This document shows, in pieces, positions 35,401 to 62,894 of a DNA stretch of 64,000 nt. The notes beneath the pieces are model-generated. The model was not told the origin of the DNA, made no database searches, and saw nothing but the letters and a program-made list of their open reading frames with translations. Both the position numbers and the translations under genes were made by a program. The stretch spans positions 1,290,001-1,354,000 of the forward strand of contig NC_089274.1 in the NCBI RefSeq assembly GCF_963678975.1, read 5' to 3'. The first letter of the stretch is position 1. Every line of letters starts with the position of its first letter. Source of the stretch: Dysidea avara (taxonomy: Eukaryota; Porifera; Demospongiae; Dictyoceratida; Dysideidae).

Positions 35401-38400
35401 AGGAAGCGCATTTCAAACAAACCACTTTCCACAATTTATTATAGTTTATCTATAGTGCAAATTCTCTCTACAAAACTTCAAGGCTACCCTTCATTTTTGT
35501 TCACTTACGTAGGGACACACCCCTTTTCGAGTCGAAGAGATATGTATTTTCTAGTAGCCTAAGAGGTGTTTTTTGGTATTTTAACTACATGAAGAGTCTG
35601 ATGGGAAGGTAGGTTACAAATTCTATAGAGAGACACTACACCTGTATTTCAAACTGGCATAAAGAAACCGCCTCAGAGCGAAACCTTGCCTATATGCTCA
35701 AGTTTAATACGGGCTTCATTTAGTGTTTAATTTTCATACGCTGACTGCATTTATCACTAAAAGGATTTGCTCACATGGGTGCGTATGGACAAACATAGAT
35801 AGGTAGATAGATAGATTAGATAGATATAGATAAATAGATTAGATAGATAGATAGATTAGATAGATAGACACAGACACAGACACACAGACAGACACACTTT
35901 TACGCTTCAGTAAACCAGACGTACACTCATAGCTGGCCTTCAGCAGGCTGTGGGCACACGCACCTGGGTTAAAAACATGGCAAATGCTTAAACAATAACT
36001 GGCATGATTTACTGACACTCCATATAAGGCTGGTGCATATGTTTATAGTATAACTATTACATGATTATGTGCTCTGAAATTTGCCTTTGAAGTAAGGTGG
36101 CTTCATCATGATATATATCATACAGTACGATAGTACTGTATAGTAGGGGTTGGTAAGAAATCATATGGTTTTGTGGATTTTTGCACCTTAAAAAACGGAC
36201 TTGCAATAAGTTTTACCCAAAAATACCACCTGAAATTGCTGTAATGATGCTGTACCTCGGTTAAACGAAGCGAAAAGTCGAATATTTCGATATATTGTAC
36301 TTTGTGTGGGAGGATCAAAGCGATGCCAAGTATTGTATTGTTCATATAGTACTAATCAGCTGCATGACTGTACTGTATGAGTCATCCAGAACAGTTATGC
36401 AGCTGATTGGGCAAATACAGTACAGTTATGCAGCTAATTGGGCAAATACAGTACAGTTATGCGGAGAATTTATTTAAGGAATGTTACGTAAACAACACTG
36501 TACTGTAAATCGCTAAAACCAGCCAAACTAATCCTACGAGTTCGTTCTACGGTTAGGAATAGATTGTATAAACACTTAATGATCATCTGATCACAAAGCT
36601 TTTTAACACGACTCCACTAAGACATCATGATTGATCACATGCGTGACATTGTAAATCGTTAAAACTAGCCAAACTAATCCTATTAGTTCGTTCTACGACT
36701 AGAAATAGATTAGTTAAACACTTACTGATATCCTGATCACCGAAAATCACAGCAGTTTGAGTACTAGAGAAAATTGCTCTGGGCCAGACGAGACCAGGAA
36801 GTACAATATAACACTTAAAGCACCGCCTATGCTTGTGTGTATGAAAAATATGGCAATCGGGGGGTGTCTCGAGGCAAATACAGCTCTCGGCTTCGCCTTG
36901 TGCTGTATTAGCCTCTCGACATGTCCCCTCGTGCTGTATTTTCCATACACACGTGCGGCAGTGCTTTAACTATAACATATAGAACTTTGCGTGGGCGAGA
37001 TCAAAGGAAAAAGTGTACTTTAAATTCATAAAGTACACTCTCAGCTGGCCAACTGCTTCATCGACCACAAAGAGTGCTTTATTGCACCGCAAAGAGTGCT
37101 TTATTGAACGGATAAAGCACTCTTTGCGGTGCAATAAAGCACTCTTTGTGGGCAATAAAGCACAGTTGCCCACGTGCCTTAGTGTAGGCTAATAGTCTAC
37201 GGGGCTCACGCCAGTACGACTAATCACCCAAGCCGGTGAAGGCTGATAGCCTCACCGTGCTGAGTGATCAGTCACCCCAGCCAATACGAGTTCTACCACT
37301 GGATTGCTTTTATAGACATACCTAAATGCTTCGATGATGGGTAGGAGAAGGTAACGTTGCTGTTACGTTTGTTAATGTAAACGGACAAGTCCTGGAGATA
37401 TCATGGAAATACTTCACCATGTGACTCACAATAGAATCGATTGTGGGTTGCGAGCAAAACCTGCCAAAAGATGCAATGAACGTCTACCATGCCAAACTAT
37501 GGTGAACTACGTGTGAGTTACTTTGTTAAACCAGTCTGCGTGCATTTAGGCTGCTAATAGTTCATGCAACGCGTGTTAATTACGAATCCTAGTGTATGAT
37601 GAAGCTACACGACTAGAAAGTTCCATAAATCATTTAAAGCATAGCCTTGCTCGTGCTATATGAAAAATAAAGTACTCAGCTGCACTCCTCGTACTTTATT
37701 TTTCATATAGCACTCGCGGCTATGCTTTAACAGTGAGTTTTAAAAATTTACCTGGATTTCGTCTGCCTGCCTGCCTGCCTGCCTGCCTGCCTGCCTGCCT
37801 GCCTGCCTGCCTGCCTGCCTGCCTGCCTGCCTGCCTGCCTGCCTGCCTGCCTGCCTGCCTGCCTGCCTGCCTGCCTGCCTGCCTGCCTGCCTGCCTGCCT
37901 GCCTGCCTGCCTGCTGTAAAACCCGGTTGAGCTAGGTATACGGCTCCAGAAATTTCAGACAGCTAAGGTAATGACGGCAGATTCACGAATCTGTTGTTCC
38001 AATTACCTGCACCATGCTGTTTGTTTTCATCATTCATTCGCTTCTTTGTTCTTCTTGAAGGGTAATTAATGGTTGCAGCGCTTAATACATGTAGTTGCGG
38101 TGTGTGCCACAACCCAAACATGTGATTTTAATGAAGTGTGAGTATGTGTGCGCAAGACGAGGGTGAATGGGTGCAGTGCCCAAGGAGTTTTCTCTAGCAT
38201 TTATTAACGCTGGGTAGTCGTTTTATATAGTCTTAATTACCAGTTTTTTTGCGAGGTAGCTAGCTAATGATGTCTTTGAGGGGCAGATCCACCTCGGGAT
38301 CCAGACTTCTAAAAGTGAGGGTTTCACTCTTAATGGTGGGCTCTCCAGCGATGTTTTACTGTATAATCATCAACATTTTAGGCCATTAGAAATGCAGCTG

Positions 38401-61100: not shown

Positions 61101-62894
61101 CGAAGGAATAGATTATATTCCTTACTGATATAATCTATGATGGAGGGTACTGTATGGAGGTACTGGTATTAGATAGCTTCACGATAGGTCACAATATCAC
61201 GCCCATTCTTCTTCATTCTACGCATTATCGATCTATCGATTGAAACCACGATGACACACCTCTTTCACTAGCTATATTTCAGTGACCACACACCTTCAAT
61301 TTGGAAGGCTGACTCGACATACTCTATAATCGATCAAAACCACGTCCCTTTTTTGGCAAGCGCACATCTTGCAGACTGCCTCGAGATACTTTAACACAGC
61401 AGTCACCCTAATAGAACAGTCACATGTTTATAGCTAGCTGTATGTCTTAACAAAAAACTAAACAAACTAGTATATTAAAAATTATAAATTTAAAAATAAA
61501 GTAGGAATCTAAACGATAAAAAGTAGTGAAACAAGAGAAGAACAATGGTAGTTATTACAGCATAGCTCGGTGAGAAATCCCTACTTTGGCATGATATAGC
61601 CATTATTTTGTGTTCAATGCCAAAATAGGAATTTCCCACCGAGCTATGCTGTAATAGTTACCATTGTTCTTCTCTTGTTTCACTACTTTTTATCGTTTAG
61701 ATTCCTACTTTATTTTTAAATTTATAATTTTTAATATATTTATTATTGTATACTAATATTACAGCATTGTGATGCTGATTACATTGCCTGTAAGTTGAAG
61801 CAAGATAAGGCACTGAGGCTTACAGCTACACCCACACAGGTGTGTGTATGTGTAGTGTGAGTGTGTGTGTGTGAGTGTGTGTGTGTGTGTGTGTGTGTGT
61901 GTGTGTGTGTGTGTGTTTGTGTGTGTGAGTGTGAGTGAGTGTGAGTCTGTGTGAGTGCGTACGTGCAAGTGTGCGTGCGTGCATACGTAGCATGTGGATG
62001 CATGTATGTAATTGCATTTATGGTCTTTCATTGCTCTAGTTAAGTCTGGGTAATTGGGGTGGTGATATTGGAGAGAGGGCTCTTGTGGGTTTCATCCATT
62101 CTCACATATTATCAGATGAGTCTTGTCTCCTACTACAAGTCCTTGACTCAGACAACATCTCAGTAAGGACACAGTTAATAGCATAACCACTGTCATCCTT
62201 CTTGTAGCAAGTACAGTCAGCATTGGTAGCTTACCAACAAGTTAAGCTAAACAACTCATCATTGTTACCAAGTGGTATGCTGCGGCCATCTACTGTGGCC
62301 AAAGAGCTACACTATATTAAGGAAAATTACCTCAGCTGGCGTAACCAGGTATGTAGTGCACTTAGCAACAGGTCAAATGTATAAATAGGTTGATTAAATA
62401 GCGTTTGTTATGTGCAAATACTTTCCTAATAAAATGCAGCACTTAGTTATCACTGACTTCCAAAATGTTAGAGTACTCAACAAAAATGGTAATAATGTAG
62501 ACACCTCTGGACACCATGCCCTGGTTTTAAAAGTGGTTTATTTTATGCACATTACTACTAGATAGAGTGACAGGTTCTACTGTAGATATGTCATAGTATT
62601 CTCTTTCTTTATATCACTTGTATTATATGTAAAAACCTTGTAGGGTATTGTGACTACACCAGAAGTTGATACCGTTCAAGTAAGTGATGTATGTTGATAA
62701 TGAAATCATTGGATTTCCTCTAGGCTAGTTCAGTGCCATCAGCACGACAAAGAATTGTAGAGAAGGCATTTTCTTCAGACACCACTTCGGTATGCTTATG
62801 CTTAATGTGTTTGTACCCATGTGAGAGTTGCATTTTGCAGTCATTGCGTCGGAAAAAGCGGAAGAGCTCTACAGCATCTTCAAAAGTAAAATGA
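58108..62894 (+). CDS. SNAPC1: SNAPC1-like snRNA-activating protein complex subunit
   Basis: Subunit of the complex that binds the proximal sequence element of snRNA promoters for Pol II and Pol III. Exons 58108-58229, 58285-58315, 60304-60432, 60484-60549, 61765-61839, 62040-62162, 62208-62348, 62644-62679, 62724-62789, 62841-62894 keep phase throughout and give 280 residues (human is 368). Matching segments include LRFADFVQVWKETRF, NVRVAALYLLYALYNTQ, IRLVPEMWIKLEELHMQL, HCDADYIACKL and a basic end LRRKKRKSS. Exon 2 is only 31 bp. The intron before exon 3 contains a 1.15-kb repeat element, and the one before exon 5 a 1.2-kb element. The fifth donor is followed directly by (GT)n. The last exon can read through a weak GTAAAA donor to TGA at 62892, or splice to an AG before 62936 and end SGKS-stop. 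Confidence 0.88.
58385..59530 (-). mobile_element. Composite hairpin-palindrome element, copy B (SNAPC1 intron)
   Basis: Inverted relative to copy A and colinear with it over 1.1 kb, with neither of copy A's insertions. Its hairpin end at 59505-59530 has lost half of the palindrome; its other end keeps only one arm of the 370-bp palindrome. Contains a private mini-inverted repeat at 58990-59030 (CATAGATACTATAAACTC...). Confidence 0.8.
60005..60075. repeat. Partial CCGTATAG-family MITE
   Basis: TACTGTATAGCTGGAAAGTT and GAAACTTTGGTGAATTTGCC resemble the ends of 9994-10199 and 27401-27541; only one end is recognisable. Confidence 0.5.
60578..61745 (+). mobile_element. Related hairpin-palindrome element (SNAPC1 intron)
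   Basis: Begins AAACGGTACAGTCGTACCGTTT followed by AAGTAGGAATCC and ends in a 260-bp palindrome at 61480-61740 (AATAAAGTAGGAATCTAAAC ... GATTCCTACTTTATT). Same plan as copies A and B but different sequence. Its 60860-60940 part (ACAAACTCACCAGTGGG-like, TGCCTTTTGGGGTTCCGACG) also occurs at 35140-35195. Confidence 0.7.
61840..61975 (+). repeat. (GT)n microsatellite starting at a 5' splice site
   Basis: About 130 bp of GT with GA and GC interruptions starting with the donor GT of SNAPC1 exon 61765-61839. Confidence 0.95.

Follow-up and report, generated by a model that had tools for sequence, protein, structure and literature searches.

A family of repeats in Dysidea avara, found in a 64,000-nucleotide (nt) stretch of contig NC_089274.1 (positions 1,290,001 to 1,354,000; hereafter the window), very probably consists of non-autonomous Helitron-like rolling-circle transposons, which would be mobilised in trans by a RepHel protein. 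The family is a variant of Helitron and no new transposon class. At the 5' end, the elements read A↓TC (↓, element boundary), followed at once by a 22-nt hairpin and then by AGTAGGGG..., while at the 3' end CTAG, CTTG or a similar word stands at the foot of a palindrome of 245-437 bp and is followed by T. The mixture is unusual: the ends and target are of Helitron1 type, the 5' hairpin and a short, asymmetric inverted repeat (AGTAGGGG...) recall Helitron2, and a giant palindrome stands where a 3' hairpin of 16-20 nt would be usual. This mixture is not new as such, because features of lepidopteran Hel-2 and of Helitron2 have already been published. No 3' palindrome several hundred bp long was described in the accessible text of the Helitron literature searched, a scope outside which lie most subscription journals and Repbase. 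A preliminary description had raised the possibility of an undescribed non-autonomous family; the non-autonomous nature and the conserved ends were borne out, whereas the Helitron hallmarks leave no room for a new class.

The window is part of an assembly of 550,814,596 bases in 108 contigs. Element A (36118..39583, + strand, corrected ends, A↓TC...CTAG↓T) carries, 2 nt in from its 5' end, a hairpin (36120..36141, +) whose 9-bp stem is perfect and whose loop has 4 nt, with AGTAGG directly after it. The 5' copy of the asymmetric inverted repeat, AGTAGGGGTTGGTAAG, lies at 36142..36157 (+), and the 3' copy, CCAATCCCTACT, lies in the outer part of the giant palindrome (39188..39551, +; arms 39188-39339 and 39400-39551). 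Element C, from another subfamily (60575..61756, +, corrected ends, A↓TC...CTAA↓T), also has a perfect 9-bp stem and a 4-nt loop, AAACGGTAC with loop GTACCGTTT (60577..60598, +). Two of its stem pairs are altered on both sides relative to A, and one extra A precedes AGTAGG. The palindrome of C (61471..61738, +; arms 61471-61592 and 61617-61738) stops 18 nt short of the 3' end. Arm complementarity amounted to 93% over 152 nt in A and 96% over 122 nt in C, and fold energies of -159.6 and -115.8 kcal/mol compared with -31.9 and -18.6 kcal/mol for shuffles (z-scores of -27 and -28, respectively). Copy B (58376..59522, - strand, low end approximate) belongs to the same subfamily as A. Its decayed 5' hairpin does not fold (minimum free energy 0), and its 3' end is lost past mid-palindrome, one stretch of B being matched by both arms of A.

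The common plan first attributed to A, B and C, a hairpin directly followed by AGTAGG and a long palindrome at the far end, therefore applies fully to A and, with one more A before AGTAGG, to C, while B retains half a palindrome and no intact hairpin. The coordinates of all three were revised to those given here, B now starting at about 59522 on the minus strand. It had also been stated that no CTRR end was seen; A and C do end in CTAG↓T and CTAA↓T, and this end was overlooked because the 245-437 bp palindrome runs up to it. Compared with B, A contains additional internal DNA at about 36295-37895 and 38599-39179. The segment at 38597-39190, absent from B, has inverted ends, TTAACCCTTAAA...TTTAAGGGTTAA, and is possibly a nested element with terminal inverted repeats (TIRs). 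A long (CTGC)n array occurs inside A at 37760-37914, and the identical tetranucleotide occurs in copies L015, L046, and L049.

Genome-wide, GTACTGTATAGTAGGGG matched 194 times, compared with 1 match for the reversed control, and chance is therefore excluded for the 5' end. The looser hairpin pattern TCANACNGTACNNNNGTACNGTNT matched 3,326 times in the 550.8 Mb genome against 1 for its reversed control. Judged by this pattern, of which AGTAGG is not a part, these matches may represent family members. Fifty loci were chosen by a 17-mer covering AGTAGGGG and, of the hairpin, no more than the 3' half. Likeness among them starts at TC, which was present in 42 of the 50, and A occupied the expected pre-element position in 47. 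Nine stem pairs were kept in 29 loci, eight in 13, seven in 3, and two or three in 5, meaning that 42 of 50 loci retain 8 or 9 of 9 Watson-Crick pairs. Among the 42 TC loci, A occurred at -1 in 41 and T at -2 in 35, and the target therefore resembles TA↓T. In about five loci (e.g., L016, L040, L043, and L060), AGTAGGGG is present but this hairpin is not. At the 5' end of L044, a tandem repeat of the first hairpin half precedes the intact hairpin, which looks like the insertion of one copy into another's end.

Covariation in the stem was tested on the first 57 listed of the 3,326 hairpin matches. The second stem pair was T-A in 34, A-T in 20 and unpaired in 3 (Fisher p = 5.5e-13), in agreement with the earlier observation that the hairpins keep their symmetry while differing in sequence. 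This compensatory change may be a single old change inherited by many copies. At the fifth stem pair, A-T was found in 52, G-T in 3 and a broken pair in 2 of the 57, and element C carries G-C there as a second compensated pair.

A family-type palindrome of 245-437 bp was present in 27 of the 50 loci, mostly 0.7-1.2 kb from the 5' end, and interrupted or cut-off arms were found in several further loci. Except in C, the palindrome extends to the element end. The 3' end was placed in 24 copies, of which 23 span 971-1,475 bp and one, L058, spans 3,708 bp. Their end words were CTAG (10), CTTG (7), GTTG (2), and one each of GTAG, GTAC, CTAA, ATAG, and ACTT. The base before the element was A in 24 of 24 copies and the base after it T in 22 of 24. 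Palindrome arms were 94.4% alike within a copy (16 copies) and 92.4% alike between copies (120 pairs). Concerted evolution of the arms was considered and rejected, as the own arm was the nearest in only 4 of 16 copies and in 0 of 5 in the other subfamily.

The target was analyzed by joining 120 bp of flank from each side of the 24 copies and comparing them with the retrieved part of the genome sequence. Junction-spanning matches to unoccupied sequence were obtained for 4 copies in 10 alignments at 69-86% identity, and no target duplication was seen in any of the 10. The flanks of L015 and L055 join without a gap, while those of L013 are gapless in 2 of 4 alignments, the other two having a gap of 1-2 nt placed one base further along. 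Insertion takes place between A and T without target duplication, as is typical of Helitrons, and the junction is exact in 3 of the 4 copies. The 24 full copies and the joined flanks together give A↓TC...CT(A/T)G↓T, which overturns the first assessment that this was not an obvious Helitron.

The joined flanks also bear on two other explanations. If the family were a TIR transposon or a miniature inverted-repeat transposable element (MITE), AGTAGGG would form the terminal inverted repeats, the 5' hairpin would be a palindromic target site and TA would be duplicated. This is tempting from copy B alone, which resembles AGTAGGGG...CCCTACT flanked by TA and TA; AGTAGGG is indeed inverted at both ends, and TA stands before the element in 35 of 42 loci and after it in 12 of 24 copies. 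However, hairpin and TC are common to 42 of 50 independent loci with differing flanks and are therefore part of the element, flanks joined at TC and CTAG match unoccupied sequence without duplication, and the flanks of L055 read AAAA on the 5' side and TATA on the 3' side. A TIR transposon or MITE with TA duplication was rejected on the joined flanks and the 50 5' ends, and we consider it very unlikely. The first remark that the two ends are not simple inverted repeats of each other was right. Even less credible is a chance neighbourhood of an unrelated hairpin repeat and a palindromic foldback repeat. It could account for the 23 of 50 5'-end loci without a family-type palindrome, most stretches of the first 30 loci stopping 1.5 kb downstream, but not for the recurrence of the palindrome in the other 27 at a mostly similar distance, for its removal together with the hairpin when flanks are joined, or for an end word that co-varies between the two ends.

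This word consists of AGTAGGGG and a few bases after the hairpin. Of 26 copies, 22 hold it again in inverted form at a distance of 24-47 nt from the 3' end, and in the other 4 no such repeat could be recognised. The word differs by subfamily at both ends together (TTGG/TTGA, CCAC/CCAT, TCTC/TCAA, and AATCC/AATCT), with weakly fitting pairs in L013 and L057. In a test on six hand-picked representatives, the true pairing of the ends was reached by 2 of 720 permutations, namely the pairing itself and a tie due to two identical 3' words. In the window, GTAGGRRTY matched 12 times against 2.95 expected. A AAAAGTANNGAAACAAG-like motif occurs in the arms of every window subfamily, D (described below) having a variant of it, and close to the loop the arms contain an inverted AATCCCTACT-like core.

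Possible sources of a transposase were searched with PF14214 (Helitron_like_N), which gave at least 150 scored matches of 230 candidates in the genome, many in long open frames. RepHel copies were sorted by score and frame length into four groups, and the one copy sampled per group lacked the TC-hairpin-AGTAGG 5' end in all four. L061 (G000:C8:36674000-36682500) contains an intact open RepHel of 1,613 aa with an N-terminal OTU domain, and its flanks read as canonical Helitron ends arranged in tandem, with a GCGC...GCGC hairpin followed by CTAG and TCTATATAATA. L062 has a canonical 3' hairpin with CTAG, and L063 and L064, read on the 5' side only, have no TC-hairpin-AGTAGG end. When 100 of the 194 hairpin ends were compared with 80 RepHel places (79 on C1-C7 and one on C8, leaving out four second fragments of places counted before), none of the 100 listed lay within 30 kb of a RepHel, the nearest being 30.7 kb away.

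The long copy L058 (3,708 bp), which has both ends, holds what is left of a protein containing KDPEKSRADS-type repeats, and two fragments of L058 are found again on C9, 552 bp apart. Used as a tag for a partner, fragments of the N-terminal remnants matched 5 and 11 places, none of them, by eye, beside a listed PF14214 match. The partner may have diverged, may be among the unsampled copies or may be lost. It is improbable, though conceivable, that the family forms a separate Helitron lineage, with a 3' terminator made of two 3' ends fused tail to tail and a transposase outside the sampled RepHel groups. Under such an improbable arrangement, with the inverted word at the foot of each arm and an inverted AATCCCTACT core at the loop, one element would have up to five AGTAGGG-type sites, and a self-folding stop signal of 120-200 bp could end rolling-circle copying on either strand.

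Among known systems, lepidopteran Hel-2 (BmHel-2, MITE01; PMC4344730) is described as combining TC...CTAG ends next to A and T with inverted repeats at the 5' end and in subterminal position, a stem-loop at the 3' end, and an internal tetranucleotide microsatellite, and the present family resembles it in all of these. Compared by description, Hel-2 differs in that its stem-loop lies upstream of CTRR within a consensus of about 250 bp, whereas the 3' palindrome alone measures 245-437 bp here. TC and CTAG ends, an A↓T target and a 3' end hairpin are also shared with Helitron1/Helraiser (PMC4778049). The palindrome of Helraiser measures 19 bp and lies 11 nt from the 3' end, and inverted repeats are lacking at the element's ends, in contrast to the giant palindrome, the 5' hairpin and the asymmetric inverted repeat found here. 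Of the canonical Helitron1 traits, the 5' TC is present (42 of 50 loci) and a 3' CTRR occurs in 11 of 24 copies, while a palindrome of 16-20 nt about 11 nt from the 3' end is absent, and the family has end inverted repeats and a 5' hairpin where Helitron1 has neither. Insertion without target duplication, the trait of the Helitron superfamily as a whole, is present, and it takes place between A and T as in canonical members.

Helitron2 is defined by 5' hairpins and asymmetric inverted repeats (PMC3627910). It and FoHeli (PMC5148889) share with the present family a 5' hairpin near the terminus, an asymmetric inverted repeat placed close to the 5' terminus and again 20-50 nt before the 3' end, and compensatory hairpin changes. 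In Helitron2, however, the hairpin includes the 5' copy of this repeat, which here follows the hairpin; the 3' end differs, as does the target, which is T-rich in Helitron2/Helentron (TT, or TTTT and T) and A↓T here. Helentron-derived HINE/DINE-1 elements (PMC4067079) are likewise abundant non-autonomous copies with subterminal inverted repeats, palindromes at both ends, and a microsatellite, but have a TT target and a 3' palindrome of 5-10 bp near the end instead of an A↓T target and a giant palindrome.

These likenesses raise the question of a non-autonomous Helitron2/Helentron proper, of the HINE/DINE-1 kind, moved by the large low-scoring RepHel group with open frames of up to 2,798 aa. 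The 5' hairpin 2 nt from the 5' end, the asymmetric inverted repeat located 24-47 nt before the 3' end and the tetranucleotide microsatellite in some copies, including A, are in line with PMC3627910 and PMC4067079, and the basic-repeat protein remnants of L058 resemble in style the N-terminus of the large RepHel gene L064. Insertion at A↓T rather than T↓T or TTTT↓T, the ends TC...CT(A/T)G and the position of the inverted repeat outside the hairpin argue against it. L058 and L064 further gave no significant translated match, and by eye none of the matching places of the L058 fragments was beside a listed PF14214 match. A Helitron2/Helentron proper is unlikely.

Several observations weigh against the assignment to non-autonomous Helitron-like elements. 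No RepHel coding was present in the elements seen, and neither the RepHel copies sampled nor the hairpin-RepHel distances revealed a partner with these ends. The 3' ends were placed by eye, in 24 of 27 palindrome copies, leaving out L012 (cut by the locus end), L018 (CTCTT↓C, a misfit), and L052 (end not found). Strict CTRR (CTAG or CTAA) accounted for only 11 of the 24, with CTTG in 7 and other words in 6. The unoccupied relatives were diverged repeats and not alleles, A↓T stood at the site in 6 of 10 of them, and both unoccupied relatives of L042 carry 3 additional nt where the flanks meet.

Apart from the three elements given in the preliminary description, two further members were found outside their coordinates. 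Element D (9476..9914, +; 439 bp) has a 5' hairpin and a weaker palindrome of 126 bp. A 3' end of D at CTAA↓T near 9895 was rejected, as similarity to L033, L053, and L013 puts the end at 9914, where the junction reads CGTTG↓A without the expected T. Element E (12530..13410, -, running from 13410 to a low coordinate of about 12530) has a 5' hairpin with one mismatch-tolerant pair followed by AGTAGGGACC, a palindrome at 12545-12729, and a truncated or unclear 3' end. Fragments of its subfamily at 48182..49140, without an assigned strand, comprise a palindrome (48210-48364) and, apart from it, an inverted piece around 49090-49140. Another inverted repeat is located at 1753-2125, with 91-nt arms that are 90% complementary and separated by 191 nt. 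Two neighbouring long open frames with an internal repeat lie at 30489-34836 on the minus strand, presumably encoding NACHT- and LRR-like sequence.

By analogy with Helraiser, a RepHel-type protein encoded elsewhere would act in trans, nicking at A↓TC, unwinding the element and copying one strand by rolling-circle replication. Copying would stop at the giant 3' hairpin, the long palindrome folding once single-stranded, and the strand would be joined into a TA↓T-like target. The AGTAGGG word common to both ends is a likely site of protein binding or end pairing, and mobilisation might proceed via recognition of the hairpin. In Helraiser, the 3' hairpin is a stop signal whose failure leads to the capture of neighbouring DNA (PMC4778049). 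A very abundant family with a roughly 10x longer 3' hairpin, a 5' hairpin and an inverted repeat offers a natural test of the roles of these end structures. Palindrome-ended repeats that resemble foldback or TIR elements may be Helitrons missed by detectors of short 3' hairpins.

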